Below the pieces are notes generated by a model that was given only the letters and a program-made list of their open reading frames with translations, was not told the origin of the DNA and made no database searches. From assembly GCA_018675425.1 (NCBI GenBank), contig JABGYD010000063.1, positions 1 through 61,360 on the forward strand: DNA of 61,360 nt. The letters run 5' to 3'. The translations under genes and the position numbers were made by a program. Below, piece after piece: positions 2,792-29,839 of this stretch (position 1 is the stretch's first letter; the number at the start of each line of letters is the position of its first letter). The DNA comes from Kordiimonadaceae bacterium (lineage in GTDB: Bacteria; Pseudomonadota; Alphaproteobacteria; Sphingomonadales; Emcibacteraceae).

Positions 2792-2824
2792 TCCATATTA
2801 TTTTTATAATTATCATTATATAGA

Positions 2825-2847
2825 AATTATTCCACTATGTGATAATT
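2825..2847. promoter_or_regulatory. Putative IclR operator in front of the sugar-acid operon
   Basis: The core TCCACTATGTGAT (2831-2843) sits in an AT-rich inverted repeat (AATTAT...ATAATT) upstream of the cupin gene. An almost identical core, TCCACTATATGGT, lies at 11661-11673 in front of the divergent IclR gene. Shared placement suggests a common operator; binding is inferred. Confidence 0.5.
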
Positions 2848-2876
2848 ATATTTAAATAATGAATGGATATTCTCTC

Positions 2877-3389
2877 ATGCGCACCCTTTTTATCTTAATA
2901 TTATCAATGATCATTGCTGCAGTTTCATTTGCTCAGTCAAGCAGTAATGAAGGAACAGCGGGTGTTTTTAAGTTAACACCAGAAATTATTGAAGACGTCT
3001 CGATGCGCCTAAAAGCTCAAATCGCTGAACAAGGTGATGCAGTAAAGGAATCGCTAGCCTTTGAATTGATCGGCAGTGATGAAGGATATAATTTATTTCT
3101 GGTACTCCGTGGAAACACCGGAACTTCAGAAATTCACACAACTGTATCAGATTTACACACTGCCGTAGCAGGCAAGGCAACGTTAGTTATTGGCGGTAAA
3201 CTTGTTAATGAATTTGAGCTGTCACCAGGTCAGATGCGCGGAACAAGTGTTAAGGGTGGAACGGAATATTCATTAAGAGCCGGCGACGCGGTTAATATCC
3301 CTGCCAACGTAGCACATCATGTGGTTGTCGCCGCGGGTGAGCAGTATATGTATTTCGTTTATCAAGTTGATAGTGAAAAACTAAAATAG
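2877..3389 (+). CDS. Exported cupin-fold protein
   Basis: Small secreted protein with a single cupin domain. The N-terminus from 2877 is a clear signal peptide ending in VSFAQ; an upstream in-frame ATG at 2859 would only add six residues. The cupin marks are SEIHTTVSDLHTAV (first motif), LRAGDAVNIPANVAHHV (second motif, with the His-bearing turn) and a final strand MYFVYQV. The mature domain is about 150 residues. It is the first gene behind the putative IclR operator at 2831 and starts a run of closely spaced genes ending at 10819. Its role is unknown; periplasmic sugar binding or isomerisation is possible. The catalytic type cannot be read from the sequence. Confidence 0.7.
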   Translation: MRTLFILILSMIIAAVSFAQSSSNEGTAGVFKLTPEIIEDVSMRLKAQIAEQGDAVKESLAFELIGSDEGYNLFLVLRGNTGTSEIHTTVSDLHTAVAGKATLVIGGKLVNEFELSPGQMRGTSVKGGTEYSLRAGDAVNIPANVAHHVVVAAGEQYMYFVYQVDSEKLK

Positions 3390-4083: not shown

Positions 4084-4998
4084 ATGAATAGAAATACAGA
4101 TTTTCACGGCGTTTACCCAATTCTTTATAGCTTCTTTGATGATCAAGGTCAGCTTGATAGAAATGCGATGAAACGCCAAGTCGAAGGCTGTATCGCAGCT
4201 GGTGCGCACGGCATTACGATTATGGGGCTGGCGACGGAAGTCGGTAAGTTAGATGTAAACGAGCGTCGTAAAGTAATCGATTGGGTTGGTGAAGATATCG
4301 CGGGTAGAGTACCTTACGCCGTAACCGTTGGTGAAGGTAGTGTGCCGGGACAAATTGAGTTTGTTAAAGCAGCAATAGCAGCAGGAGCCGATTGGGCGAT
4401 TTTGCAACCGCCTGCTATTCTTGGTGTTCCTGAAATTGAATATGTCAGATTTTTAGGTAATGTTGCTGATACAACAGATCTTCCCATAGCTGTTCAAAAT
4501 GCGCCGGGCGTGATGGCGACGAGCCTTTCTAATGGCGGCTTAAAAACGCTTAATAAACAGCATCCAAATGTTTGTTTATTAAAAGCAGAAGGACCCGCAA
4601 CTTATATCCATCAACTGATGCAAGATACGGAAGGTGCGTTCGATATATTTGGCGGCTTTGCCGGAATTCAACTCCCGGATAGTTTGCGTGCGGGTTGCGT
4701 TGGCATGATCCCAGCAGCAGATATATTTGATCCACAACTTAAAATTTATGAACTTATGAAAAAAGGTGATCCTGCTTCCGTTGCCGAAGCCGAAAGACTT
4801 CACAAAGAATTATTACCTTTACTCGTTTTCATGATGAGTTCGGTAGAGAATTTTGTTGCTTACGGAAAAGATTTGATGGCACAGCGATTAGGGCTAGATA
4901 ATGGTAACGCACGCCAACCGTCGGTACCTGTAACAGATTTTGGTCGAGAAATCGTTTCTCGCTGGGCTCGTGATCTTGGACCATTTCCAAGTGTTTGA
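4084..4998 (+). CDS. DapA/NAL-superfamily lyase or dehydratase with altered active site
   Basis: Class I Schiff-base TIM-barrel enzyme of the dihydrodipicolinate synthase / N-acetylneuraminate lyase superfamily, about 304 residues. The Schiff-base lysine is visible in CLLKAEGP. Two usual features differ. The substrate-loop GTTGE is read as GLATEVG, and the proton-relay Tyr of the YNxP motif is Gln (IAVQNAPG). It therefore is probably not DapA but an aldolase or dehydratase for a keto-deoxy sugar acid. AAGGA lies a few bases before the ATG. It sits between the RraA-like gene and the tctC transporter gene. Confidence 0.8.
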   Translation: MNRNTDFHGVYPILYSFFDDQGQLDRNAMKRQVEGCIAAGAHGITIMGLATEVGKLDVNERRKVIDWVGEDIAGRVPYAVTVGEGSVPGQIEFVKAAIAAGADWAILQPPAILGVPEIEYVRFLGNVADTTDLPIAVQNAPGVMATSLSNGGLKTLNKQHPNVCLLKAEGPATYIHQLMQDTEGAFDIFGGFAGIQLPDSLRAGCVGMIPAADIFDPQLKIYELMKKGDPASVAEAERLHKELLPLLVFMMSSVENFVAYGKDLMAQRLGLDNGNARQPSVPVTDFGREIVSRWARDLGPFPSV

Positions 4999-5066
4999 CA
5001 TAACGAATGTGAATGTTAACTTGAGAGCACGGTATTATAGTAATTAAATGTATGCGGGAATTAAAC

Positions 5067-6035
5067 ATGATTAAATCTTTTAAAAAATTAACCTCAATGT
5101 CTTTGATTTTGATCATGATGTCTGCAGCATTTAGTCACGTGCAGGCGGCGGACTTTCCTTCGAAACGATTGACGTTAATCTGTCCATGGGCAGCGGGTGG
5201 TGGAACGGATACAATTTTACGCGGACTAGCCAGAAATACAGAACCATTTCTAGGAGAGACCATAACGATTATAAATAAGACCGGTGGTAGTGGCGCGATA
5301 GGCCATGCAGCAGGTGTTAGAGCGCGTCCTGATGGTTATACCGTGACGATGGTAACGTTTGATATTCTTACCTTACCGCCACAAGGCTTTGTCCCGTTTA
5401 CCTATAAAGATTATGATTTACTGATGCGGGTTAATATGGACCCTGCAGCGATCACTGTTCCAATTGACGCGCCTTATAATACCATCGAAGAATTCGTTGC
5501 TTATTCGAAGGCAAACCCCGGTAAAATTAAAGTAGGTCACGCTGGCCCCGGCACCGCTTGGCATCTGGCTGGAAGTATCTTTGCAGAAAAAGTGGGCATC
5601 GACCTAGCATACGTTCCTTATAATGGTGCCGCCCCTGCGGTTACCGCGCTTGTCGGAAAACATATCCAAGCCGTTTCAGTGAGCCCTGCGGAAGTCCGTG
5701 GTCAAGTTGAAGGTGGAACTGTTAAGATTTTGGCTGTGATGAGCGATGAACGCGTTTCAGGCTTTCCTGAGGTACCGACGATGAAAGAAGCGGGATTTGA
5801 TGTCAGCTTCGGAACGTGGCGCGGTCTAGCGGTTCCAAATTCAACACCAGAAGACGCGAAGAAAATCCTTCATGATGCCTTTAAAAAAGGCATGGAGTCT
5901 GACGCATTTAAAGCATTCGCGGCTGATACTGGATTAGGCGTTTCATATATGAGTGCAGAAGATTGGGAAAAAGACTTATCAACGTCTTCAGTGAGTGTTG
6001 CTAAAACGATGAAAAACCTAGGCTTAGCTAGATAA
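5067..6035 (+). CDS. tctC: Tripartite tricarboxylate transporter substrate-binding protein
   Basis: Periplasmic binding protein of a TTT (TctCBA) secondary importer. It has a Sec signal peptide (MSLILIMMSAAFSHVQA) followed by the TctC opening FPSKRLTLICPWAAGGGTD. The mature protein keeps the family blocks GGSGAIG, ARPDGYT, VGHAGPGTAWH and YVPYNGAAPA. An upstream in-frame ATG at 5052 exists; 5067 is preferred because GGGAA precedes it at a normal distance. Its small-subunit and large-subunit genes follow directly. By context the ligand is probably a sugar acid or keto-deoxy acid rather than citrate. Confidence 0.9.
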   Translation: MIKSFKKLTSMSLILIMMSAAFSHVQAADFPSKRLTLICPWAAGGGTDTILRGLARNTEPFLGETITIINKTGGSGAIGHAAGVRARPDGYTVTMVTFDILTLPPQGFVPFTYKDYDLLMRVNMDPAAITVPIDAPYNTIEEFVAYSKANPGKIKVGHAGPGTAWHLAGSIFAEKVGIDLAYVPYNGAAPAVTALVGKHIQAVSVSPAEVRGQVEGGTVKILAVMSDERVSGFPEVPTMKEAGFDVSFGTWRGLAVPNSTPEDAKKILHDAFKKGMESDAFKAFAADTGLGVSYMSAEDWEKDLSTSSVSVAKTMKNLGLAR

Positions 6036-6061
6036 AAAGTGCGTTGGAGACTTAATTCAGA

Positions 6062-6523
6062 ATGAAACGTGTAGATATTATTTTTGGAATAATCGGCTTA
6101 ATCATATCGGCCTACGTTTTTTCTATGCTGGATAGTTTTCCAGAAGGCCAACCCGGAGAAGTCGGCGCGGACTTTTTTCCCTATATCCTTGCTATTGGTT
6201 TGGGAGTTTCAAGCCTCGTTCTTATTGTCAGCTCAGTTTTTAAGAAAACATCTGAAGATGCAGAGCCCTTTAAATTTTCGGATACTGGCATCCAAAGGGT
6301 GGGAATAGCGTTAGCCTCGACGGTCATTTATTGTTTGGCGCTGGATAGCCTTGGCTTCATTGTTTGCACCTTGGTATATTTGCCCCTAATGATGTTCTTA
6401 TTGAAGGAAAGAAAATATTTCCAAATGGTCCTCGTGAGTGGAGCGATTACGGCAACAGTCTTCCTTATTTTTAGCTCATTCCTCAACATAACTTTACCTT
6501 TGGGGACGCTCTATGGATATTGA
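6062..6523 (+). CDS. tctB: Tripartite tricarboxylate transporter small membrane subunit
   Basis: TctB-family subunit of about 153 residues with four predicted membrane segments. The N-terminal helix with FGIIGLIISAYVFSML is followed by the characteristic loop GADFFPYILAIGLG, then three further helices. GGAGA lies upstream of the ATG. Its last 11 bases overlap the start of tctA, as is usual for these operons and indicates coupled translation. It has no catalytic residues; it completes the membrane complex with TctA. Confidence 0.9.
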   Translation: MKRVDIIFGIIGLIISAYVFSMLDSFPEGQPGEVGADFFPYILAIGLGVSSLVLIVSSVFKKTSEDAEPFKFSDTGIQRVGIALASTVIYCLALDSLGFIVCTLVYLPLMMFLLKERKYFQMVLVSGAITATVFLIFSSFLNITLPLGTLYGY

Positions 6524-7988: not shown

Positions 7989-8920
7989 TGGCCATGTTTG
8001 ATAATGCAACACTCATTGGTCTTGATTGGGGAACAACTTCCTTACGAGCGCATCTTATTGGCTCAGATGGAATGTTGCTTGATACTATCCAATCCCAAGA
8101 AGGAATTATGTCTCCAGAAGGTAAGGATTTCGTGAAAACCTTCGAAAGGGTTGTTGGCCCTTGGTTAAGTAAATACCCTAACTTACCCGTCATCGCATCA
8201 GGTATGATTACCAGTCGTAATGGCTGGTTGGAAACACCGTATTTACCCTTACCAGCGGGACCTTCTGGTTTTGCCAATGCCCTTACGTGCTTTAATATAA
8301 ATGACACTCAAAAAATCTATTTTGTTACAGGTGCAAGTTATAAAAGCGACGCGGGTGACCCCGACATCATGCGCGGCGAAGAGGTTCAAATTTTAGGATG
8401 CCTCCAAGAAAACAATGGCCCTAAAGAAATCTTTCTACTGCCCGGCACGCATAGCAAGTGGGCTATTGCCCTTTCAGGAACAATTGAAAGCTTTATGAGC
8501 TTCATGACAGGTGAGATATATGCCCTGCTTAATAACCATTCAATTTTAGGCACATTAGCAACCCCAAATAAAAAGCCATTGTCTGACGGTTTTCTGAATG
8601 GCGTTAAAAGAAGGTTCGGGTCTAATAGCTCGCTTTTACATCAAGTCTTTAGTGCGCGAACATTAGCCCTTTTTGATCAATTGCCTAGCGATGAAATATC
8701 CGATTTTATCTCAGGGCTATTAATTGGTGATGAGGTAAAATCAGCCATAACAGAATTTAATATAGCGGCATCTGAGACAGTGCATATCATTGGTCGTGGT
8801 GATCTGGCAGAGAAATATTCAATGGCCTTAGATGCTGTTAATGTTTCTAATAAAATAGCCTCTGAACATGCCGCAGCAACGGGACTTTATCAAATCGCCA
8901 AGGGCGCAAGGATTATATAA
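7988..8920 (+). CDS. dgoK: 2-dehydro-3-deoxygalactonokinase
   Basis: Kinase of the DgoK family that phosphorylates 2-keto-3-deoxygalactonate. The N-terminal ATP-site strand GLDWGTTSLRAHLI is typical; GMITSRNGW, MRGEEVQILG and LLPGTHSKWA are the other family blocks. The length of 310 residues is usual. Start and stop codons overlap those of tctA and dgoA by one base, so translation is coupled. Together with dgoA it gives the last two steps of the De Ley-Doudoroff branch, yielding pyruvate and glyceraldehyde 3-phosphate. No galactonate dehydratase is present in the window, so the imported substrate may already be a keto-deoxy acid, or the dehydratase lies elsewhere. Confidence 0.92.
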   Translation: MAMFDNATLIGLDWGTTSLRAHLIGSDGMLLDTIQSQEGIMSPEGKDFVKTFERVVGPWLSKYPNLPVIASGMITSRNGWLETPYLPLPAGPSGFANALTCFNINDTQKIYFVTGASYKSDAGDPDIMRGEEVQILGCLQENNGPKEIFLLPGTHSKWAIALSGTIESFMSFMTGEIYALLNNHSILGTLATPNKKPLSDGFLNGVKRRFGSNSSLLHQVFSARTLALFDQLPSDEISDFISGLLIGDEVKSAITEFNIAASETVHIIGRGDLAEKYSMALDAVNVSNKIASEHAAATGLYQIAKGARII

Positions 8921-9555
8921 TGAACTTAATGACATCATGGACACAAAAACTTAGCGATATGCCATTGGTAGCTATCTTGCGTGGCTTACCGCCTGAGCAG
9001 GCAATCGATGTTTCAACGGTACTCGTAGAGGCAGGTTTTAAAATTATTGAAGTCCCCCTTAATTCACCAGAACCTTTTGAGAGTATTTCTAAAATTAAGA
9101 AGCATTTTGGCGATCAAATAATTGTTGGTGCGGGTACAGTATTAACGGGCGAAGACGCACGTAAAGTGCATGATTGCGGCGGTGAATTAATCGTAGCCCC
9201 AAACCTCGACCCTGAAGTTGCAGAAGTGTCACGCGCATTAGGGATGATATATTGCCCAGGAATACTCACTCCAACAGAAGCATTTTTGGCCTTAAAATTG
9301 GGCGCAACAACGATAAAGCTATTTCCTGCTGATGCCCACCCCCCGTCCTATATCAAAGCAATCAGAGCAGTATTGCCACCAGAGACATCAATCATGCCCA
9401 CAGGTGGCATCGTACCGGATAACATGGCTCAATATATTTCTGCGGGTGCAAACGGCTTAGGACTAGGTTCTGCATTATATTCTCCAAATAAAACATTAGA
9501 TGAAATATCCGCTGCCGCCAAAACGTACATCAAGGCAATCAAACCCCTTCTTTAG
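8920..9555 (+). CDS. dgoA: 2-dehydro-3-deoxy-6-phosphogalactonate aldolase
   Basis: Class I aldolase of the KDPG/KDPGal family, about 211 residues. Marks are LVAILRGLPPEQAI (KDPGal type) and the catalytic Glu region IIEVPLNSPEPF. AGTVLTGEDARKV, the Schiff-base lysine in TIKLFPADAHPPSYIKAIRAVLP and the phosphate-binding PTGGIVPDNM follow. The start ATG overlaps the dgoK stop. It splits KDPGal (and probably KDPG made by kdgK) to pyruvate and glyceraldehyde 3-phosphate. Confidence 0.92.
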   Translation: MNLMTSWTQKLSDMPLVAILRGLPPEQAIDVSTVLVEAGFKIIEVPLNSPEPFESISKIKKHFGDQIIVGAGTVLTGEDARKVHDCGGELIVAPNLDPEVAEVSRALGMIYCPGILTPTEAFLALKLGATTIKLFPADAHPPSYIKAIRAVLPPETSIMPTGGIVPDNMAQYISAGANGLGLGSALYSPNKTLDEISAAAKTYIKAIKPLL

Positions 9556-13991: not shown

Positions 13992-14285
13992 TATTTTTAT
14001 CTTTTATTTCAAATCTAGAGGTTTTTGGGGATTTTAGGACGAAATAACCACTTTCAAAACATCAATCATAACCTTGATTGTTTCCATTACACTAGTTGCA
14101 CTTAACCCCACTTGGTTCTTTTAATGATAGATTTCCTAATATTAAAATTTTTAGCCTATACCCAAACCCCTCACCTGTAAACCTGACCACAGTCCAGTTT
14201 GTCTCACTTACTAGTATCTGGGTAGAGTTAGCTATGAAAAATGGTCATAAAATAACAACAAAAAAAAACTCAAACACAAACATAA
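13992..14285. other. Gene-free interval
   Basis: AT-rich sequence between the serine hydrolase start and the Sel1 remnant. A 66-codon frame (14096-14296) has no recognisable domain, a Pro/Asn/Thr-rich low-complexity content and no ribosome site, so I do not call it a gene. Near 14254-14290 the sequence is an A/C-only run (repeated CAAACA/AACAAC units). Confidence 0.5.
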
Positions 14286-14498
14286 ACAACACCTAGTGTC
14301 AAAGATGCTGTTGCCCAAAATAATCTTGGTCTCATGTATGATAATGGTAATGGAGTTCCTCAGGATTATGTAGAGGCGTATAAGTGTTGGAATTTGGCTG
14401 CTAAGGAATTCAAGGAGATGATTGAAGAGAAAATGACTAGGCAGCAAATAGCTGAAGGTCAGAGACTATCGAGAGAGTGGTTTAAGGAGCATCAATAA
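14286..14498 (+). pseudogene. Truncated Sel1-repeat protein remnant
   Basis: The open frame from 14286 to the TAA at 14496-14498 translates to one Sel1-like repeat: AVAQNNLGLMYDNGNGVPQD followed by YVEAYKCWNLAAKEF. After that comes a C-terminal tail with MTRQQIAEGQRLSREW, the standard ending of short bacterial Sel1 proteins. Upstream repeats and any signal peptide are missing; the frame is closed by TAA at 14283. The first Met is inside the repeat. It is the 3' relic of a secreted Sel1-repeat gene, cut off by A/C-rich DNA. Confidence 0.75.
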
Positions 14499-14517
14499 TG
14501 AAGGTTTTCATAGAAAT

Positions 14518-14994
14518 TTATTTTTTTCTTTTTTCTTCTTCTTTTCTTTTAGCTTTTTCTTCTTCTTTTCTTTTAGCTTTTTCTTTTCTTTTGTCTTTTT
14601 CTTTTTCCAAACTTATCTTATCTTTTAAACTCATAATATAAGCAGATATAGCTAAAATTAATATTGCCCCTGCTTCACCCATCAACAACAAAGCGTCTAT
14701 ATCTTTACTTTGCATAACAATTAATCGGCACAGAGCCGTAATTGCGATAATGATAGGGAGAGTAACAGGAATTCTATTTGTACTATAGAAGGCTCCAACC
14801 ATTCCTATTATTTCAACATATATAAATAGTAAAAAAAGATCTGAAAGAAGGATCTCTCTTGCTTGAAACATTGAATACAAATATTGACCAGCCGCAATAC
14901 AGGTTGCTATTCCAATAATAGCAAGAAGAGCCCTTTCGCTCAAATCTGTTGTCCAGTGCAGACTTTTATTAATTTTTGGTAATTTAAAATCCAT
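14518..14994 (-). CDS. PsiE-family membrane protein with Lys/Glu tail
   Basis: Integral membrane protein of 158 residues with four helices. The block LSDLFLLFIYVEIIGMVGAF, then RIPVTLPIIIAITALCRLIV, matches the phosphate-starvation-inducible PsiE family. The C-terminal 30 residues are almost only Lys, Glu, Arg and Ala and contain an exact tandem unit KAKRKEEE, encoded by a 24-base direct repeat close to the stop codon. This tail is not part of the usual family and would be a charged coiled or disordered cytoplasmic segment. Function is unknown even for E. coli PsiE. A 16-bp perfect palindrome lies about 90 bases upstream of the start. Confidence 0.75.
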   Translation of the reverse strand: MDFKLPKINKSLHWTTDLSERALLAIIGIATCIAAGQYLYSMFQAREILLSDLFLLFIYVEIIGMVGAFYSTNRIPVTLPIIIAITALCRLIVMQSKDIDALLLMGEAGAILILAISAYIMSLKDKISLEKEKDKRKEKAKRKEEEKAKRKEEEKRKK

Positions 14995-15078
14995 TAACCC
15001 ACAAACCTAACCATTAATTGTAAAAAAATATATGATACCATAAAACAACAATAAACAACAATAACCACTATAAATTAT

Positions 15079-15094
15079 TAATTCATATGAATTA
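15079..15094. promoter_or_regulatory. Perfect 16-bp palindrome
   Basis: TAATTCATATGAATTA is fully self-complementary. It lies in the 188-base interval between the psiE-like start (14994) and the end of the M24 gene (15183), where the psiE-like promoter should be. It is a possible operator; no partner site was found. Confidence 0.3.
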
Positions 15095-15182
15095 TTTCTT
15101 ATTAAAATACGATTTAATGCGACAGATGATTAGAATATAGGAAGGTTATTCTTGGCTATTTATCCATCCTAAGTAACTAGTT

Positions 15183-16355
15183 TTAAATAGTATTTAGAGC
15201 GAAATAAGGTTCTTTCCAAGACTTATAATCATTAATTACTTTAACTTCATTTATCTCTAACAAAACAGTATCTCGGGATCGATACAATAGAGACTTATAC
15301 TTCACTAAACCATCAAGGATAAATATCATGTTTTTTTCAAGTATTGTTTGGTCCCCCAAACTTAAAAATGGACCCTCCATCGGAGACACGCCAACATTAA
15401 AACCTAATGCATGACCATCAATAATCTCAATACCTGCATTTGCAGCTTTTTCCACTGCATCCTTATAAACTTCGCAACACCGGCGTCCTACTTTTAATAC
15501 ATCGCATAGTATCTTACGTAATTCCACTAAATGCTTATATGCAATTTCTTGTTCATCACTCATTTCCTCAGACATAATAGCAATCCGTGTTGAGTTACTC
15601 CAATAACCGTTTTCATTATTCATAGCATCGGCAATAATTGTGTCTCCGATCTGCGTAAAGTCGCCTGCTGCAAAACCAAATTTTGGTGCATAAGCCCATA
15701 TATTCGATATGCTATTACCAATAACGCCACGTGAGCATGCGTTATAACCTTCAAGATCGATGTCTCGCTCTAAACTGTGAATACGTAAATTTTCTGAAAT
15801 ACTCATTGACGATTTTGATCTATCTGCAATTAAATGGTGATAAAACCCATTGATTGCATGATCAGTTTTCATAGCAATTGACTTTAAATGTTTAATTTCC
15901 ATTTTTGTTTTTCTTGACCGTGCAGACATAATATCATCCGCACAAGCAACATGTTTGCCCCCCAATTCGGCAATTTCTTTTTTTATTATTTTGCTTATTA
16001 TAATTGGAATTAGTTCATCATCGCAGCCTAAGCGTTTTGCTGAGCTGCACTTTTCAAAAACAATTTTAATGGCGCTTTCCAATGGATCATGTTTTAAAGA
16101 ATATGCAAAAACATCAACATTATGATTAGATTGTTTAACAATATTTTCCCAGCACTTTGGAACAACAACTAAAGGGTTTTTATCTTTCTTTAAAAGCGCG
16201 AACATCCGTAAGTCAGTTTGTGCATGGGAGCACGGTATTTTAATGTTGGTAGCATATTGAATATTATAGATATCAGAAATAATAAGTACATCAAGCTGCT
16301 TAGTATCGATGATTGTTGCTATTTTTTGTGTTATTTCTTGCTCAAGGTTATTCAT
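15183..16355 (-). CDS. M24 pita-bread protein, metal ligands partly lost (paralogue 1)
   Basis: Creatinase/aminopeptidase P (M24) fold protein of 390 residues with the usual N-terminal creatinase domain (about 1-140) and C-terminal pita-bread domain (150-370). In true M24 metallopeptidases five ligands hold two metals. Here the first Asp is kept (D243) and the His is kept (H315, GHALG). The second Asp is Asn (GYWSNSTR, N254), the first Glu is Asp (FILDG, D348) and the last Glu is Arg (R361). This points to creatinase- or ectoine-hydrolase-like chemistry, or to a non-catalytic subunit, rather than peptidase activity. TAAAGGA precedes the ATG. The gene follows a paralogue with 18 bases between them and shares its C-terminal YKSW motif. 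Confidence 0.75.
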   Translation of the reverse strand: MNNLEQEITQKIATIIDTKQLDVLIISDIYNIQYATNIKIPCSHAQTDLRMFALLKKDKNPLVVVPKCWENIVKQSNHNVDVFAYSLKHDPLESAIKIVFEKCSSAKRLGCDDELIPIIISKIIKKEIAELGGKHVACADDIMSARSRKTKMEIKHLKSIAMKTDHAINGFYHHLIADRSKSSMSISENLRIHSLERDIDLEGYNACSRGVIGNSISNIWAYAPKFGFAAGDFTQIGDTIIADAMNNENGYWSNSTRIAIMSEEMSDEQEIAYKHLVELRKILCDVLKVGRRCCEVYKDAVEKAANAGIEIIDGHALGFNVGVSPMEGPFLSLGDQTILEKNMIFILDGLVKYKSLLYRSRDTVLLEINEVKVINDYKSWKEPYFALNTI

Positions 16356-16373
16356 AATATCAATTTTCCTTTA

Positions 16374-17570
16374 TTAACCGTGACGGGCTGATGTGCCATG
16401 AAGAACGTACAGATCATTCCAGCTTTTATACCAATTAAGTAGGCGTGGTTCACCATTTGTGACTAAATACACATCTTTATTACAAATTAATTCATTATCA
16501 TTTCCATAGGTATAAACTCCCAATACTATGACCATACCTTCAGCTATTAAAGTATCATCATATGGGGCTAAAAATGGTCTTTCACGTTCTTTAGTTCCAA
16601 CCCCGTGACCCAAATCAATATCGCCCCAAAATGGAATATTTAAATCTTCACTTGATTGTCTAACAGCATTATAAACTTCGCTTGATTTTATACCTGGACG
16701 AAGATTTTCGAGGGCAATGTTTTTTAAAGTTTGATTATTTTCCCAAACCTTCTCAGCATGTTGGTTACTCTGACCAAGGTAAACAGTTCTTGAGCCTGTA
16801 ACCCAATAACCAGAATTATGCAGAGAATACTCCAATCGAACAAAGCCAGGTTTGTTTAACACAGCGCTTGGTTCACACCTGGCATACAATTCTTTACAAT
16901 CCTCACCTTGAACAACGACCATATTGCCCACACAAGATCCCCCATATTCACCTACATGAACACGAAAACGTTCCGCATATTCCCAAAGTGGATAACTCAG
17001 GGCATCTAATGCCGCTCCTTCGCTATGATTTAAAGCACTGACAAATCCACGGTCACCCATTCGACAGGCAATTTCAAGTAATCTAATTTCTGCATCTGTC
17101 TTAAGAAGCTTTAAATCATCAAATACTTGATCACCGCCTATAGTTACCAAGCCATTTATTGATTTTTTTAATGCTTTAATTTGTGCTGTAGTCATATAGT
17201 TTTCGTCAATAGCCACTTTGCCAGTAATATAGTTTTTAAGGACTTCGGCAATTGATAGTTCAGGCGTTTGCTGATTAAGGTTATAGATAACAACTTCACC
17301 GTTCCAATTTAACTGTTTGGGGATGTCAGCAAGATCATTTGTACACACAATGATACGCTTACCAGTTTTATAACAAATATAAAGCGCCACTGGCTGTACA
17401 ACCTTTTGATCCAAATATGGAAAAACAATTCCACAAGATAGATAGGTAATGTTACTGCTGCCAAAAACAAGTAAAGCGTCAAAGCCATTACTTTTCATTT
17501 TATTTTCGATTTTTTCACCGAGATTTTGTTTTTCAGCAACTGATAGTGAAATATCATTCATTCTAGACAT
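16374..17570 (-). CDS. M24 pita-bread protein, metal ligands lost (paralogue 2)
   Basis: Second M24-fold protein, about 398 residues. The start at 17570 is preferred because AAGGGAA lies 8 bases before it; an ATG at 17591 adds seven residues but lacks a ribosome site. Counting from 17570, the five metal positions read Glu (E247), Thr (T258 in GYWVTGSRT), His (H322 in LGHGVG), Gly (G351) and Lys (K365). Only the His survives, so dinuclear metal binding is very unlikely. Creatinase, which hydrolyses C-N bonds without metal, is the known precedent. It shares with paralogue 1 the spacing, the KT-x-x-EI helix and the terminal YKSW block. It lies directly behind the ABC transporter genes, suggesting the imported solute is its substrate. 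Confidence 0.75.
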   Translation of the reverse strand: MSRMNDISLSVAEKQNLGEKIENKMKSNGFDALLVFGSSNITYLSCGIVFPYLDQKVVQPVALYICYKTGKRIIVCTNDLADIPKQLNWNGEVVIYNLNQQTPELSIAEVLKNYITGKVAIDENYMTTAQIKALKKSINGLVTIGGDQVFDDLKLLKTDAEIRLLEIACRMGDRGFVSALNHSEGAALDALSYPLWEYAERFRVHVGEYGGSCVGNMVVVQGEDCKELYARCEPSAVLNKPGFVRLEYSLHNSGYWVTGSRTVYLGQSNQHAEKVWENNQTLKNIALENLRPGIKSSEVYNAVRQSSEDLNIPFWGDIDLGHGVGTKERERPFLAPYDDTLIAEGMVIVLGVYTYGNDNELICNKDVYLVTNGEPRLLNWYKSWNDLYVLHGTSARHG

Positions 17571-17604
17571 ATTTGGTATTCCCTTACTCATTATAGGATA
17601 TCTA

Positions 17605-18354
17605 TTACAATAAATTCCCTAAAAATTCTTTTGTTCTTTGATGGCTTGGTTTTTCGATTACTTGTTTTGATGGTCCGTCTTCAATGATTTCGCCATTAAC
17701 CAAAACTAAAACTCTTGATGCCGCTTCTTTAATAAAATTTATTTCGTGGCTTACAACAACCATAGTCATTCCCTCTTGGGCAAGTGAAACCATAACATCA
17801 AGAACTTCTCGAACCATCTCAGGGTCAAGAGCCGATGTTGGTTCATCAAAAAGAAGTATTTTTGGATCCATGGCAAGCGACCTTGCAATAGCAACACGTT
17901 GTTGCTGTCCCCCAGAAAGTTGTTCTGGAAAGTTATTGGCCTTCTCTTCAAGTCCTACTCTTTTGAGCAAAGCCATAGCATTTATTTTTGATTTTACCTT
18001 AGATATTTTTTTTATCTTTGTTGGCGCAAGCATGATGTTTTCAAGAGCACTTAAATGAGGAAATAAAGCAAAGTTTTGAAAAACCATTCCAATATCCCGT
18101 CTTATGTCACATATTTTATTTTTTGAACCTGTAACCTCCAGATCACCAAAATATATCTGGCCGGTGGTTGGTTCTTCTATCCTATTGATACAACGGATAA
18201 ATGTACTTTTACCTCCTCCAGATGGCCCCATAATGGCGACAACCTCGCCCTTGCTAATGGTCGTGGATATTGATTTCAAAATATGCTCATCACCAAAATA
18301 TTTATTCAGCCCAATGACACGAAGGATTGCCTCTGAATGAAGTTGCTTACTCAT
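17605..18354 (-). CDS. Amino-acid-type ABC transporter ATP-binding protein (GlnQ-like)
   Basis: ATPase of the polar amino acid uptake (PAAT) type, 249 residues. Walker A is GPSGGGKST, the signature is LSGGQQQR and Walker B is ILLFDEPTSALD, followed by the H-loop VVVSHE. DIRRDIGMVFQNFALFPHL is the usual Q-loop. The start overlaps the stop of the second permease (ATGA). It powers the importer whose two permeases and binding protein lie upstream on the same strand. Confidence 0.93.
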   Translation of the reverse strand: MSKQLHSEAILRVIGLNKYFGDEHILKSISTTISKGEVVAIMGPSGGGKSTFIRCINRIEEPTTGQIYFGDLEVTGSKNKICDIRRDIGMVFQNFALFPHLSALENIMLAPTKIKKISKVKSKINAMALLKRVGLEEKANNFPEQLSGGQQQRVAIARSLAMDPKILLFDEPTSALDPEMVREVLDVMVSLAQEGMTMVVVSHEINFIKEAASRVLVLVNGEIIEDGPSKQVIEKPSHQRTKEFLGNLL

Positions 18355-19040
18355 TTTTTTATTCTCACATTTTTTTCAAGTCTCATTGTAAAGATGGTTA
18401 AGGGAATAAGGATAAGAAGATACATAAAAGTACTCATGACTAAAGGGGTTGGATTTGCTTTCCACGCTGCAATAATTTGTGCTGCCTTGAGAAGTTCAGT
18501 AATGGCCAAGATAGTACAAATCGAGGTATCTTTTATAATGCCAGTCCATTGGTTTGCAAGCGTTGGCAATACAATTCGAAAGGCTTGTGGCACTAAGATA
18601 TATTGGTAGGTTTGTATTTGATTAAGACCAAGTGATTGCGCTGCCTCAGTTTGTGACTTATTAATTGCTAGTATTCCAGATCTAAACGCTTCACCAATAT
18701 AAGCCGTATGGACAAATACAATAACAATAACGGCAGACTGAAAGGGTGAGAAAGTAATATTTAAAAAAGGAAGCCCAAAATAAACAACTATTAATGCAAC
18801 TACAATCGGCGTCGCACGGCAAAACTCTAAGTAAGTTATCAACAATAAATTATAAGCAGAGCTATTTTGTATTCTAACGATAGCTACAAATAATCCAAGT
18901 ATAGTAGAAAAAATTATTGAAACGGCGGCTATCTTTATCGTAACCCATAGTCCGAAAAACAATAACCCCCATTGTCCGTCCATAACTTCCATATTGAAGA
19001 AAATATGTTTGATGTCATTAATACCAAAATCATCCATCAT
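18351..19040 (-). CDS. Amino-acid-type ABC transporter permease 2
   Basis: Inner-membrane permease of the HisMQ/GlnP family, about 229 residues with five predicted helices. The EAA loop that contacts the ATPase reads TEAAQSLGLNQIQTYQYILV, followed by PQAFRIVLPTLANQW. YLEFCRATPIVVALIVVYFG is the typical third-helix block. It starts directly after the stop of permease 1 and overlaps the ATPase start by four bases. Confidence 0.92.
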   Translation of the reverse strand: MMDDFGINDIKHIFFNMEVMDGQWGLLFFGLWVTIKIAAVSIIFSTILGLFVAIVRIQNSSAYNLLLITYLEFCRATPIVVALIVVYFGLPFLNITFSPFQSAVIVIVFVHTAYIGEAFRSGILAINKSQTEAAQSLGLNQIQTYQYILVPQAFRIVLPTLANQWTGIIKDTSICTILAITELLKAAQIIAAWKANPTPLVMSTFMYLLILIPLTIFTMRLEKNVRIKK

Positions 19041-19838
19041 TTAATTTTTACTCCAGCGACGGCTTTGTTTTTCTAATCGACTTGAGAATAAAACCACCGG
19101 TAAAATAATTATAAAATATAGAAAAGAAACAAATATCAAGGGTGTTACCGAACCAATCACCCCTTCCATTTGCCGCGCTCTAGCAATTAATTCTGGCACG
19201 CCAACTACGTAGGCAATGGAAGTCGTTTTAAGAATATCAATTAATACAGAAGTAAGAGGAGGTATAATAACCCTAAACGCTTGAGGTAAAACAACCCATC
19301 TCATTGATTGCAAACTTCCCATCCCTAAAGCATTAGCAGCTTCGAGTTGAAAACGGTCAACTGAATTTATTCCAGAGCGAAAAATCTCTGTAGTGTACGC
19401 ACTAAACAATAATGAAAGTGACGCAATTACAGAATTTGTTGAGACTAGGTTTAAGCCAACATATGGCAAAGCAAAATATACCAAAACCACCAAAACCATA
19501 GCCGGAATAGAGCGAAATAAGACGACATATGCGGTAATTAATCCATTGATAAAAACATTATTAAAACTTCTTATTATCGCCATTATAAGTCCAATGAGGA
19601 TTGCCAAAAAACAACTAAAAAATGATATTTTTAAAATCAAAATTAACGGGGAAATAAAAATATGATAACGCCCCCTCATCTTTTCAAAATTAAAGAACTG
19701 TTCCTGAAATAAAGACCAGTCGGCGTTTGAAAAAAAAATTCCATATACAACAAAAAACATTATCGTCATAAGGATACTTAAATTGGGTAGATATTTATAT
19801 ATTTTTGTAGTGATGGCTTTATTTCTCCATTTTATCAT
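19041..19838 (-). CDS. Amino-acid-type ABC transporter permease 1
   Basis: Second HisMQ/GlnP-family permease, about 265 residues. The EAA loop is LEAANALGMGSLQSMRWVVL followed by PQAFRVIIPPLTSVL; VVLFRSIPAMVLVVLVYFA is the family third-helix block. A longer reading frame extends to 19880, but the ATG at 19838 (MIKWRNK) overlaps the stop of the binding-protein gene by 20 bases and gives a normal N-terminus, so I use it. It forms a heterodimer with permease 2. Confidence 0.88.
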   Translation of the reverse strand: MIKWRNKAITTKIYKYLPNLSILMTIMFFVVYGIFFSNADWSLFQEQFFNFEKMRGRYHIFISPLILILKISFFSCFLAILIGLIMAIIRSFNNVFINGLITAYVVLFRSIPAMVLVVLVYFALPYVGLNLVSTNSVIASLSLLFSAYTTEIFRSGINSVDRFQLEAANALGMGSLQSMRWVVLPQAFRVIIPPLTSVLIDILKTTSIAYVVGVPELIARARQMEGVIGSVTPLIFVSFLYFIIILPVVLFSSRLEKQSRRWSKN

Positions 19839-20673
19839 AGAGCACATAAGCTGAATTATTTTTACCTGGATAAACACCATGATATTTTTTGTATATTTTA
19901 CCTATTGTTCCATCCTTTTTCATCTCCCTAATTGCTTTAGTTACATCTTCGATGAGTGGTGATTTTCTCCTAAAAGCAAATCCTACTTTATAGGGATCAC
20001 CAAGCGTTGAGCCGCGTTTCAAACGCATCTTATGGCTTTCCACATACCAGTCAATAATACTTAGGTCAGAAACACCTGCATCTAAGCGGCCAGTTTGAAC
20101 GTCTAAGAATACGTCGGGAGTACCATTATATGATTGAATTATATAGGGACCATATTGACCAATATTCTCTCGCAACCAAACCTCTGCTCCTGAGCCAATA
20201 TCCACTCCTAATACTTTACCCTTAATATCATCAAGTGATGAAATATTTGATTTAACATTTACAAGCATCCCCATGCCTGTATCAAAATGCGGCTCGGAGA
20301 AATCCATCATTAATTGTCGTTCTTCATTTATGAAAATATTAGATGCAGCAATATCCCACTTTTTTGATAATAATCCAGTAAATAGACCCGTCCAAGCAAC
20401 ATCATAATAGACAATTACTTTATTTAGCCTTTTAGCTATTTCGTTTAAAATATCCGGCTCATAACCTATCAAAGGCTGAGATGGATCGGAATTTCTATAA
20501 TAAGCCCGCGGCGGTGTCGTGATAACTAACCCAACATGAATTTGGTTATCATGCCTATCAAATTTATCATTACTAACGGACACAACATTTTGTGCAATTG
20601 ACAGACTAGAAAGAATACATAGATAGATAAAGGTTAGAATATAAATATGTAATTTGATTTTATTTCCCATCAT
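19819..20673 (-). CDS. ABC transporter substrate-binding protein, PAAT family
   Basis: Periplasmic solute-binding protein of the polar amino acid family (SBP_bac_3), about 284 residues. The start at 20673 overlaps the amidohydrolase stop as ATGA. The signal peptide ends in LSSLSIAQN. Family marks are PLIGYEPDILNEIAKRLN, WTGLFTGLLSKKWDIAASNI, MDFSEPHFDTGMGMLV, GKVLGVDIGSGAEVW and a C-terminal KKYHGVYPG. The ligand is unknown; context points to an amide- or amidine-containing amino compound. Confidence 0.9.
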   Translation of the reverse strand: MMGNKIKLHIYILTFIYLCILSSLSIAQNVVSVSNDKFDRHDNQIHVGLVITTPPRAYYRNSDPSQPLIGYEPDILNEIAKRLNKVIVYYDVAWTGLFTGLLSKKWDIAASNIFINEERQLMMDFSEPHFDTGMGMLVNVKSNISSLDDIKGKVLGVDIGSGAEVWLRENIGQYGPYIIQSYNGTPDVFLDVQTGRLDAGVSDLSIIDWYVESHKMRLKRGSTLGDPYKVGFAFRRKSPLIEDVTKAIREMKKDGTIGKIYKKYHGVYPGKNNSAYVLYDKMEK

Positions 20674-22103
20674 AAATATTTTGTTTTTCCCCAAAACCCA
20701 TCAGGTAATTCAAGAAGTGGCTTGGCATCCATACGTTTTATCATTTTATTTGTTTCATTTTGTGCCTCCCTTAATATTTCTTCTTTATTAACCCGAGTTG
20801 GCAATTTATTTTCCAGCATCACTTTGCCTCCAACAATTACCATATCAACGTCATTACCATTAGCGAAACAAGCCAGTCTATAAGGTTCCATGTTAACAGG
20901 ATGTAGATGAGCAGATTGCATATCAACTAATATAATATCAGCGTATTTTCCTAACTCTAGAGATCCAATTTTATGGTCTAGTCCCAGGGCTATTGCGCCA
21001 TCAATAGTTGCCATTTCAAGAGCTTTGCCGGGTGGCATATATGATGCGTCACGATAATGAGTTCTATGATAATGCATTAATTGTTGAATGTGTCGAAACA
21101 TATCCCCTGACCGGTCTGGTGCTGTAGCGTCAGAACCTAAGCCAACAACTACGCCAGCCTCAATTAAGTCTATCACTGGACAATATCCGTAAATTGATGC
21201 AACAGCAGATGGGTTATGAGCAATACGTGTATTTGTTTTTGCACAGATACCTATTTCTTCCTTAGATAAGTTTGTTGCGTGTGAAAGTAGCACATCTGAT
21301 CCTAATAAACCTAAGTCATCAGCTCGCTTTACAGAACCACCAGTATGGCCATCTTGAGTGAAAATTACATTTGCCTCTTTAGATAGTTCACGGACAAACT
21401 TAACTTGACGGACCGCTTCTTCAAAATCTACCACCGACATATTTTCTTTATGCTCATTCCGAAGAACAGGATAGATCATAGCAATCATTATGCGCTCATT
21501 AATAGATCTATCCCAGCGCGATAATACTTCCTCACAAGTTGCAATTTGTTTCTTAAAGTCAACATCATATTCTATTGATTTATTGCCATCCCACCGCGAA
21601 TATTTTAATGGATGTGGAGCGCGTGTTGGTCCAATCGCAACAACTGATCTTGTGCCTACTTCAGCTACCCCTCTACAGTGAGCATCTGCGTAGATAGGGT
21701 CATCTGTTCGCATGATGGTATCACCTCCACCAAGCAATGATACACCACATGTTACACCAAACCTTAGCCTTTCTAGCGCTGCTAAGCGTGCTTCAGCATA
21801 CCAAAATTCAGGAGTTGAACCAGACGTATAGATTGTGCCGCAATTTCTTTCCCAGTCACTGTTCATAGCCATAGTTTTAACTAAGCCATGACCAGCATGG
21901 GCGTGTACGTCAATCAAGCCGGGCATGATGACTTTACCTGCCGCATTAATTGTGCGTTCTGCGCTGAAGGTACCTTTAGCAGCTTTTGAAGTACCTATAA
22001 AAACTATAAGACCTTTATCAATGACAACCCCGCCATCATTAATTACTCTGCGGTCTTTGTCTATTGTAACAACTGTACCGCCATAAATTATAAGGTCGAC
22101 CAT
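20670..22103 (-). CDS. Deaminase/chlorohydrolase-type amidohydrolase (AtzB/TrzN/SsnA-like)
   Basis: Cytoplasmic metal-dependent hydrolase of the amidohydrolase-1 superfamily, 477 residues. Metal and catalytic marks are MPGLIDVHAHAGHG (HxH), TQDGHTGG (His), LLSHATNLS (His) and GLGSDATAPDRSGD (Asp). The N-terminal IIYGGTVVTIDKDR and the C-terminal GKYADIILVDMQSAHLHPVN form the beta-sandwich shared by guanine/8-oxoguanine deaminases, SAH deaminase and triazine hydrolases. The substrate is probably a cyclic amidine or amino-heterocycle. GGAGAAG precedes the ATG. It is the first gene of a coupled run with the ABC importer, so it probably acts on the imported compound. Confidence 0.85.
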   Translation of the reverse strand: MVDLIIYGGTVVTIDKDRRVINDGGVVIDKGLIVFIGTSKAAKGTFSAERTINAAGKVIMPGLIDVHAHAGHGLVKTMAMNSDWERNCGTIYTSGSTPEFWYAEARLAALERLRFGVTCGVSLLGGGDTIMRTDDPIYADAHCRGVAEVGTRSVVAIGPTRAPHPLKYSRWDGNKSIEYDVDFKKQIATCEEVLSRWDRSINERIMIAMIYPVLRNEHKENMSVVDFEEAVRQVKFVRELSKEANVIFTQDGHTGGSVKRADDLGLLGSDVLLSHATNLSKEEIGICAKTNTRIAHNPSAVASIYGYCPVIDLIEAGVVVGLGSDATAPDRSGDMFRHIQQLMHYHRTHYRDASYMPPGKALEMATIDGAIALGLDHKIGSLELGKYADIILVDMQSAHLHPVNMEPYRLACFANGNDVDMVIVGGKVMLENKLPTRVNKEEILREAQNETNKMIKRMDAKPLLELPDGFWGKTKYL

Positions 22104-22180: not shown

Positions 22181-23431
22181 TTATTTATCTTCAAATATAT
22201 CCAATGGTAGTATTGCCGTTACGCCAACATTTGGTGTATCTACAAGTTGGCCTATCCTTAAGTCCACAGCAACACTTGCTATTACATAGGCCTGCAACTT
22301 GTTATAACCGTATGTTGCTACAATATAATCAATAATACCATCAAGGGCGTTGCGGGCAGCTAGATTTATATCATTTGACAAATTGGTCAGGTCAGCAACT
22401 TTAGCAGACTGGAGGTATTTTAGTCTTGGAGGTACACTTCCTGCTACTTTAATTGGAAAGCCCGTTACCGCATAAAATTTTGTAGATGGGATATCCAATA
22501 AACTTGATGCCCCACTGAAGTGGGGCCCTTGCCTAAGGTCAGGACCGTTTTTTATTATATCTGCAACGCCCCAAATATCCGCTGACATCTCTATAGCCGT
22601 ACCACTTACTTCGCCATCACCTTGTGCAAAATGTAAGTCACCGACAGCAAGACCACATCCATCAATATAGCAGGGTAAATATATAGTAACACCAACCTTC
22701 AGATAACGAATATCCATATTTCCACCATGTTCGCGGGGCGGTATCGTGCGCAAGCATTCATCACGTCCACTTCCTAATGGGCCACATATAGATGCAGGTG
22801 AAGCTTTATCGGTCATTGGTACATACACATCTCCTCCAGCCTCAAACAATGCTTGCTCACGGTCTAGCATTTCAACTAATTTTTTTCTATTTGGAAGTGT
22901 TGTTACTACTCCAGGAAAACTAGCATTCGGAATTTTAACTCCTGGAAGATCCTCACTCACTGCATAACTTTCATTTAAATTCCAGGATACAGTTAGTTTT
23001 CCAGGCCCCATTAAGTCTTGAGCAAACCCAGATGTACTAGTATATGCGTAGCGGCCAGGTTTTATTTTACTTATAGTAAAAGCAAGCACGTCGCCTGCTT
23101 TAGCTCCTTCGATATACACAGGGCCAGTAATAGGATGAACCCGACCAAAACTCCAATCATCACCAGGCTTTTTCATCGTATCAGTTTGACTATCTACAAT
23201 GCCTAATACATCTTGAGCATCACGGGTATGAAATAAAATAGTCTGCCCAGGCTTTGCAAAGGCTGTCATAGGGATGTCAGAGTGAATACGGTTAAAGCAC
23301 TGTATATCTTCGAGACATGTATCACCCTCACCCCCGACTTCAATTATATCCTGTGCAAATACAAGCTCCGTACTTATAAAAAATAAAATTAGTATTGATA
23401 AAAAATTAATTAGATGACTATTAACAGACAT
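22181..23431 (-). CDS. Exported acetamidase/formamidase family protein
   Basis: FmdA/AmdA-family amidase of 416 residues. It has a Sec signal peptide (LIILFFISTELVFAQD-type region near residues 12-27), which most cytoplasmic formamidases lack. Family blocks include ILFHTRDAQD, HPITGPVYIEGAKAGDVLAF, PGVVTTLPNRK, the CGLAVGDLHFAQGDGEVSGTA core and GCGLAVGD. The predicted reaction is hydrolysis of a small amide to a carboxylate and ammonia in the periplasm. AAGGGAGAG precedes the ATG. It lies just upstream of the amidohydrolase-ABC importer genes on the same strand, consistent with extracellular processing of the nitrogen compound. Confidence 0.88.
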   Translation of the reverse strand: MSVNSHLINFLSILILFFISTELVFAQDIIEVGGEGDTCLEDIQCFNRIHSDIPMTAFAKPGQTILFHTRDAQDVLGIVDSQTDTMKKPGDDWSFGRVHPITGPVYIEGAKAGDVLAFTISKIKPGRYAYTSTSGFAQDLMGPGKLTVSWNLNESYAVSEDLPGVKIPNASFPGVVTTLPNRKKLVEMLDREQALFEAGGDVYVPMTDKASPASICGPLGSGRDECLRTIPPREHGGNMDIRYLKVGVTIYLPCYIDGCGLAVGDLHFAQGDGEVSGTAIEMSADIWGVADIIKNGPDLRQGPHFSGASSLLDIPSTKFYAVTGFPIKVAGSVPPRLKYLQSAKVADLTNLSNDINLAARNALDGIIDYIVATYGYNKLQAYVIASVAVDLRIGQLVDTPNVGVTAILPLDIFEDK

Positions 23432-29068: not shown

Positions 29069-29839
29069 CTAAAATCTACCACAACAAACTTTCATTTTAT
29101 CACCAGTAATTGCGCTTGATGCATCAGATGCATAGAACAGGGCTGCTTTTGCAACCTCTTTAGGGTCAACCCAACGCTTAAGGGCAGCAACATCGGTGTA
29201 GTTTTCCCGCTCTATTTCACTTGCAGGCCTGCCCTCTGCTTCAGCACGATGTTCCAGAATCCGATTCATATTTTTACCTGACACAGCACCTGGAAGCAGA
29301 ACATTTACTCTTACATTGTTGGGCCCAACTTCGCGTGCAACTGCTTCTGTCATGCCAACAAGTGCAAATTTAGTGGCAGTGTAAGCTGAGCGCATCGGAT
29401 ATCCCTCAATGCCCATCAAGGACGACATATTTATAATTGAACCAGATTTTTGTGCACACATTACCCTCGCAGCTTCACGCATACAATACATAGCGCCAAA
29501 GAGATTTATCTCTGCACACTCTTTCCACTGGTCAACATTCACCTCAGCAATTGGTGCGACTGGTCCAGGAATACCAGCATTATTAACCAAAACATCGATA
29601 TTACCATTGATTAATTGTGCTTTAGTAAAAAGCTTTTGAACATCTTCAAATTTTGATACATCACAAACAATAGCTGTCCCATTATTACGTTCGGCCACTG
29701 GCAAAATTGTCTCAAGGCTTCTTCCTGTTATTATTACATAAGCACCGTGATCTGCAAACATATCTGCAACGGCCTCACCTATCCCAGTACCACCGCCCGT
29801 TATGATTGCCACTTTACCCTCGAGTGTGTTTAATTTCAT
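29069..29839 (-). CDS. Short-chain dehydrogenase/reductase
   Basis: Classical SDR of 256 residues with a Rossmann fold. The cofactor motif is TGGGTGIG (TGxxxGIG), then NNAGIPG, active-site Ser in INMSSLMG and YTATK (Tyr and Lys). The acid-free loop after strand 2 (TGRSLE) leaves NAD versus NADP undecided. GGAAGAAGG lies just before the ATG, and the start overlaps the stop of the flavin dehydrogenase gene by four bases. The last residues CCGRF are unusual for the family. It oxidises an alcohol or reduces a ketone of the operon's substrate. Confidence 0.9.
   Translation of the reverse strand: MKLNTLEGKVAIITGGGTGIGEAVADMFADHGAYVIITGRSLETILPVAERNNGTAIVCDVSKFEDVQKLFTKAQLINGNIDVLVNNAGIPGPVAPIAEVNVDQWKECAEINLFGAMYCMREAARVMCAQKSGSIINMSSLMGIEGYPMRSAYTATKFALVGMTEAVAREVGPNNVRVNVLLPGAVSGKNMNRILEHRAEAEGRPASEIERENYTDVAALKRWVDPKEVAKAALFYASDASSAITGDKMKVCCGRF

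Follow-up and report, generated by a model that had tools for sequence, protein, structure and literature searches.

The M24 or pita-bread fold is the textbook scaffold of metallopeptidases, its members are usually dimers, and in prolidases the last metal ligand, a Glu, bridges two metals. Creatinase is a homodimer, and Spt16 and Ebp1 use the fold non-catalytically. Solved C-N hydrolases of this fold include creatinase (PDB 1chm, 1kp0, 7yto) and the ectoine hydrolase DoeA/EutD (PDB 6twj, 6twk, 6yo9), and both show lost ligand columns. The available parts of PMC5924519 and PMC8739950 do not state the catalytic residue of EutD, and the available part of PMC7568399 yielded no active-site residues. 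In C. elegans, the ligand-poor M24 domain of PID-5 has been proposed to heterodimerise, according to the accessible portion of PMC10377022. Among the literature matches listed, none described a heteromeric metal-free M24 enzyme. Here we describe a conserved gene unit with two tandem M24 genes, M24-1 and M24-2. The reading that we favour, rating it a little short of an even chance, is a catabolic operon in which these two proteins form a heteromeric, metal-free C-N hydrolase that is coupled in series to an amidohydrolase, M24-1 being the likelier catalytic member.

The unit lies on the minus strand of the window, that is, the whole stretch of 61,360 nucleotides of Kordiimonadaceae DNA that was analysed, and runs from 22103 to 15183. 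It consists of seven closely spaced genes in the order AtzA/TrzN-type amidohydrolase, amino-acid-type binding protein, two permeases, ATPase, M24-1 and M24-2 (Table 1), with intergenic gaps of -62 to +34 bp for the ORF starts as listed and 18 bp between the two M24 genes. A preliminary description of this DNA had reported two adjacent M24 proteins next to an ABC importer, and the Pfam matches (M24/Creatinase_N) and the PAAT-type importer upstream bear this out. The end that it gave, 17570, agrees with the start codon of most orthologues, an ATG; the M24-1 ORF itself opens at 17591, from which the residue numbers of this protein (E254/T265/H329/G358/K372) are counted. The amidohydrolase, in which HAH, SHA and GSD motifs were found, had been missed, and it is the part of the unit that best hints at the chemistry. 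The true start of the binding protein is probably a few codons inside its ORF.

Table 1. Genes of the conserved unit and the gene preceding it, with positions in the window.
Feature	Coordinates	Strand	Basis or remark
Amidohydrolase, AtzA/TrzN/SAH-deaminase branch, opens the conserved unit	20670..22103	-	family models, motifs
SBP_bac_3 binding protein	19819..20694	-	family models, alignment
ABC permease 1, HEQRo type	19041..19880	-	family models
ABC permease 2, HEQRo type	18351..19040	-	family models
PAAT-type ABC ATPase, GlnQ/TcyN/EhuA-like	17605..18354	-	family models; same place in orthologous loci
M24-1, full-length pita-bread protein, 398 aa	16374..17570	-	Pfam, orthologue alignment, model
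M24-2, full-length pita-bread protein, 390 aa	15183..16355	-	Pfam, orthologue alignment, model
Acetamidase/formamidase (FmdA-type) family protein	22181..23431	-	77 bp upstream of the unit

Four loci share all seven genes and their order: the window, L021 (genome G011), L022 (G004) and L024 (G001). In a further genome (G003), the binding-protein gene is truncated by a contig end, and a different contig carries the amidohydrolase. We take these seven genes as the unit because their order is kept while the flanks vary. The 3' neighbours of M24-2 vary among all five loci in which this end was read; on the other side, PhyH-like, sulfatase-like and SDR-like ORFs precede the amidohydrolase both in the window and in L021, a close relative, and the genes at that place differ in L022 and L024. 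An FmdA-type gene precedes the amidohydrolase only in the window among the four loci with a complete unit, and as no such ORF has a counterpart there in L021, L022 and L024, it was placed outside the conserved unit. Its product has a signal-peptide-like start (read by eye), suggesting an exported form. The GC minimum among the listed 2-kb blocks (0.332, at 14001-16000) spans most of M24-2 and a PsiE-family gene, and a promoter and terminator scan returned counts lower than the shuffle means. Elsewhere in the window, two adjacent FAD-oxidoreductase-like ORFs (29836-32342) are followed by DapA-like, SMP-30-like and CoA-transferase-like ORFs (all by eye), a region that looks like another imino- or opine-acid pathway.

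Among the genomes searched, the seven-gene unit was confined to part of a single genus. M24-1 is present in five of its 13 genomes, the same five that carry the amidohydrolase at E<=1e-60, and M24-2 in six, in five of which the two genes are adjacent and together. The sixth, G009, has M24-2 alone at a contig end (L026), on which two transposase/integrase-like ORFs (7-1176 and 8230-9210) were also read by eye; M24-1 and the amidohydrolase were not found in this genome. M24-2 had no match at E<=0.001 in the 19 other genomes of the family searched, and at E<=1e-8 its profile matched four of 385 genomes of the class, its own and three weak ones at 40-44 bits. The M24-1 profile at 1e-18 matched one of 299 genomes of the phylum, its own. 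A scan of genome contigs from wider taxa with two narrow patterns gave five loci, all in genus genomes already found, and two peptide patterns detected no virus-borne copies. The plasmid search gave no near DNA match to 15183-22103; relatives of M24-1 occurred in 113 plasmid records, the 40 listed ones at 20-25% identity.

Ligand columns were read against a canonical M24 protein of the same window (45351-46631, D/D/H/E/E). The corresponding columns of M24-1 are E254/T265/H329/G358/K372, and E/(T or S)/H/G/(K or R) is retained in all five copies, the fourth column being, according to the alignment used, Gly or a deletion of one residue, with no acid either way. Those of M24-2 are D243/N254/F319/D348/R361, with D/N/F/D/R in all six copies. 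The canonical set thus occurs in no copy of either protein, in line with the earlier claim that both lack it, and the pattern E/T/H/G/K proposed for one of the two was recovered in M24-1. The pattern D/N/H/D/R proposed for the other stands except for its third letter, since that His is H315, which occupies the substrate-His column; the metal-His column holds a Phe (F319) in six of six copies. A shared terminal YKSW motif is present in both window proteins as described, and across copies only YK is invariant (YKSW, YKNW or YKTY in M24-1; YKSW or YKDW in M24-2). In addition, the last Glu is replaced by Lys or Arg in all 11 copies of the two proteins. A further His, in the PH column, which we take to be creatinase His232 with its active-site role, is absent from the same 11 copies and present in two creatinase rows (L076, L077), in the DoeA rows and in the canonical rows. 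The loop carrying this column was modelled at low confidence, yet there is no His in that stretch of either window protein.

An atypical metalloenzyme, with one metal on the remaining E/H or D/D residues, was considered from these columns. E254 and H329 of M24-1 and D243 and D348 of M24-2 could hold one ion, and DddP is a non-peptidase M24 member that is a metalloenzyme, as given in the available part of PMC4108388. In contrast, the cationic residue present in place of the last Glu in 11 of 11 copies disfavours a metal cation at that position, and we consider this alternative improbable.

The loss of ligands was not accompanied by signs of decay. Copies diverge to 58% (M24-1) and 55% (M24-2) identity with their ligand patterns unchanged, and dN/dS, calculated with a Nei-Gojobori script for a single genome pair (against L027), was 0.137 for M24-1 and 0.145 for M24-2, within the range of 0.06-0.18 of the other five genes of the unit. 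These values indicate purifying selection, and therefore that neither gene is decaying. Moreover, as the ligand patterns are fixed over this divergence, with low dN/dS and conserved gene order, they reflect more than chance. The main rival of our reading is a pair of pseudoenzymes in which both proteins have lost catalysis and form a complex that binds metabolites, or acts as a scaffold or regulator, for the importer or the amidohydrolase; this is a real alternative, although we regard it as rather doubtful. Four of the five ligands are changed in each protein and the PH-column His is lost as well, the M24-2 profile scores Spt16 chains at 39 bits against 42 bits for the best prolidase, and a non-peptidase M24 pseudoenzyme has been described (PMC3888471, in the part available). 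Against it, polar residues of the former metal site are conserved (E, H and K/R in M24-1; D, N, D and R in M24-2), and the genes sit in a catabolic operon.

Both proteins matched Pfam Peptidase_M24 (E 1.1e-13 for M24-1 and 1.2e-15 for M24-2), which places them in the pita-bread fold, and models built for both from 12-row alignments were of moderate confidence (mean pLDDT 76.2 and 78.6, respectively). Prolidases, creatinases and DoeA headed the structural matches of both models, aligning along almost their entire length. For M24-1, VIA Z scores were tied between an Xaa-Pro dipeptidase (35.5; rmsd 3.1, 360 aligned residues), creatinase (34.9) and DoeA (34.8); for M24-2 they were 37.1 for creatinase (rmsd 2.9, 365 aligned), 35.8 for an Xaa-Pro dipeptidase and 35.3 for DoeA. 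The predicted fold alone does not decide the function of either protein. Orthology to a known peptidase, raised earlier as a possible objection, was not supported, no peptidase family model coming near its cut-off (the best, PepQ, at 55 bits versus 630). The NCBIfam DoeA model NF038259 gave 23.8 bits with M24-2 against a cut-off of 575, and no match with M24-1 at E<=0.001. Ectoine use was rejected, as the preliminary description had anticipated, there being no DoeA (TIGR02993) match in the own genome at E<=1e-80.

In a 32-row tree, M24-1 and M24-2 form a clade with support of 99/97, on long branches. The two window proteins are 23% identical, and the M24-2 profile scores M24-1 at 61-75 bits, compared with 43.8 bits for the best match outside the genus (385 class genomes), which independently supports the sister relation. 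Most probably, a single tandem duplication took place long ago and the copies then diverged strongly. AU tests, for groups that were named after the tree had been seen, rejected M24-2 with creatinase (p 0.002), M24-1 with the DoeA branch (L051, L052 and L024:2051-3190; p 0.004) and M24-2 with the K-group described below (p 0.016), and barely rejected M24-1 with the K-group (p 0.034); in the best tree, the pair and the K-group are joined at 79/61, which is not firm. Long branches meet in this tree, including at the join of the pair with the K-group, and several rows have an odd letter make-up. Rows L009, L010, L014-L019, L051, L052 and L079 are match stretches, L031 is truncated where its contig stops, and seven rows (L009, L010, L015-L019) have gaps in the last one or two ligand columns. 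As rows were hand-picked, partly for lacking ligands, they give no rate of ligand loss.

A true creatinase or ectoine hydrolase of unusual sequence is, on these data, very improbable. Creatinase is the top fold match of M24-2, but the groupings of M24-2 with creatinase and of M24-1 with DoeA were rejected by the AU test, and the patterns and kept His of creatinase (N/A/H/E/H in the two plasmid creatinases, L076 and L077) and of DoeA (all five ligand columns changed, E/P/Y/M or I/T) differ from the pair. Creatinase orthology has both the tree test on M24-2 and the residues against it, and identity to creatinase over the structural alignments is 12-15%. Two other ligand-poor M24 proteins that keep the PH-column His were seen on long branches. 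One, with E/R/Y/Y/S, is a third M24 protein without metal ligands in L024 (G001; 2051-3190, minus strand), just downstream of the M24-1/M24-2 unit; it falls in the DoeA branch (98/97), is flanked by permease-like and binding-protein-like ORFs and adjoins a glutamine-amidotransferase-like ORF (by eye). The other, with G/E/H/E/S, is encoded at 4932-6161 of L080, a plasmid of Deinococcus sp. D7000, and lies near creatinase (87/89).

The K-group is an uncharacterised 'Xaa-Pro peptidase family' (L025, L046, L047, L056, L057, L078) with the columns E/G/H/E/K. It resembles M24-1 in the Glu of the first column, the kept His, the Lys in place of the last Glu and the loss of the PH-column His, and differs from it in being a single gene with the fourth Glu kept and another gene context, at 22-24% identity. 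Its columns differ from those of M24-1 at positions 2 and 4 and from those of M24-2 at all five. The M24-1 profile at 1e-20 matched four of 385 class genomes, its own and three K-group carriers (two loci read), and the K-group profile at 1e-80 matched two of 367, one being a profile row. In four of the six loci read (L025, L056, L057, L078; three of these clusters are near copies), the K-group M24 gene lies directly beside another amidohydrolase, which was not the case in L046 and L047. These amidohydrolases are only 24-26% identical to that of the window, so the arrangement is a parallel and not orthology.

This parallel bears on the alternative that there is no heteromer: M24-1 would form a homodimer and act by itself, as the single-gene K-group would, and the role of M24-2 would be a separate one. 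M24-1 keeps E/H/K as the K-group does, M24-2 is without the His of the metal column, and G009 has M24-2 with no M24-1 found (at a contig end); the amidohydrolase was not found there either, and this genome counts against a paired enzyme. On the other side, the pair is adjacent and together in five of the six genomes with M24-2, and M24-2 is under as much constraint as M24-1. We hold this alternative, though a real one, to be unlikely.

Other contexts of M24 genes were recorded as well. The clusters with the K-group M24 genes of L056 (11965-13137), L057 (12019-13191), L078 (7965-9137) and L025 (3495-4637) contain octopine-dehydrogenase-like and DpsA genes. An isochorismatase-like gene and a further amidohydrolase are present in three of them, L056, L057 and, by eye, L025. 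The clusters represent an uncharacterised pathway for an N compound. In L046 (7557-8678) and L047 (7049-8164), the K-group gene comes right after ORFs resembling a gene set for a molybdenum hydroxylase of the xanthine dehydrogenase type (by eye). In L083, a plasmid of Natronorubrum aibiense, a PotD-type ABC operon has an M24 gene (4929-6128) between its ATPase and permease genes, with a creatininase family gene and an ArgE/DapE deacylase as neighbours.

Hints to the substrate came from the importer and the amidohydrolase. The binding protein most resembles binders of glutamine and of cationic amino acids. Its EERQ motif (from residue 124) has kept the Arg, and its GRLDAGVSD motif (from 202) the second Asp; both align with the residues by which amino-acid binding proteins hold the alpha-carboxylate and alpha-amino groups. 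These two residues suggest an amino-acid-like zwitterion as a candidate ligand. The amidohydrolase had 370 matching records; among the 30 listed, relatives at 54-58% identity are on plasmids of rhizobial, stappial and roseobacter genera. Six regions with relatives were read (five at 54-58% identity and one at 42%), with incomplete gene tables. An ABC importer was found in all six, an Asp/Glu racemase family gene in five, a DapA-like gene in four and an annotated hydantoinase (hydA) in three; the Asp/Glu racemase family includes hydantoin racemases. From this context, the amidohydrolase would be expected to act on cyclic ureides or amidines. None of the six regions had an annotated M24 gene in these incomplete tables, suggesting that the amidohydrolase can work without the M24 pair. 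We also considered that the pair might stand in for a hydantoinase. This was rejected: elsewhere in the genome of the window there are two D-hydantoinase matches and one carbamoylase match over the cut-off, so the pair is not needed to complete a hydantoin route.

Urease-alpha (PF00449) was matched in nine of the 13 genus genomes at E<=0.001 and in six over the Pfam cut-off. These matches are pieces of 35-45 residues of the 121-position model, scoring 20-28 bits within frames of 418-523 aa, and in G000 the piece (C1:11900-12022) overlaps a hydantoinase (C1:10631-11992); they are probably other amidohydrolases. None of the five genomes with M24-1 passed the cut-off (G000 20.4 bits, G001 21.2 bits, no match in G003, G004 and G011), and six of the other eight, including G009, passed it with short pieces. 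This pattern argues mildly against nitrogen being obtained by a reaction of the creatinase type that releases urea, and urea as a usable product was set aside. The creatinase-like activity proposed in the preliminary description was not supported, given the rejected clades, the lost PH-column His and the lack of urease-alpha over the cut-off in these five genomes.

Our preferred reading, the metal-free heteromeric C-N hydrolase, draws on the operon context, on the polar residues conserved where the metal site used to be and on the two solved precedents. It is also favoured by the amidohydrolase next to four of the six K-group genes read, by the gene neighbourhoods of the amidohydrolase relatives and by the heterodimer proposed for PID-5. 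The importer would take up a small zwitterionic, amino-acid-like nitrogen compound, on which the amidohydrolase would perform one hydrolytic step, either a deamination or the opening of an amidine or cyclic amide group. The two M24 proteins, sisters from an old tandem duplication, would, we infer, be the unlike halves of the fold's usual dimer, and this dimer would carry out a second, metal-free C-N hydrolysis. M24-1 would be the likelier catalytic half, with E254, H329 and K/R372 in the former metal site, and M24-2 (D243, N254, H315, D348, R361) may either complete the pocket across the interface or be a non-catalytic partner in the complex. A stronger form, an obligate heteromer with one active site split over the two copies, a conserved Lys or Arg instead of the last metal ligand in each half and a new C-N substrate, appears to us no likelier than the loss of catalysis discussed above. 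Because the pair has lost the His kept by creatinase, DoeA and canonical members, no known mechanism transfers to it, and the metal-free heteromeric reading is weakened by this loss. The operon also makes the substrate readily approachable, by way of its binding protein.

Two C-N hydrolases of the M24 fold with few metal ligands came up in this analysis, creatinase and ectoine hydrolase. Creatinase is like the pair in its pita-bread fold, its changed ligand columns and, on our reading, its small C-N substrate, and unlike it in keeping the PH-column His and in the rejection of its clade with M24-2. DoeA shares with M24-1 the Glu in the first ligand column and, as proposed for the unit, acts in the catabolism of an imported compound, but it also keeps the PH-column His, and its clade with M24-1 was rejected. 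If our reading is correct, the pair, lacking both the metal site and the His of these precedents, would represent a different catalytic solution; alternatively, it would reveal a bacterial metabolic role for M24 pseudoenzymes. In the latter respect, Spt16 and Ebp1 likewise have the fold without peptidase function, but they are eukaryotic and belong to no catabolic operon. PID-5 has a ligand-poor M24-like domain proposed to pair with a paralogue, as the unlike halves would do here; according to the available part of its description, its partner is an active aminopeptidase P and its context is eukaryotic silencing.
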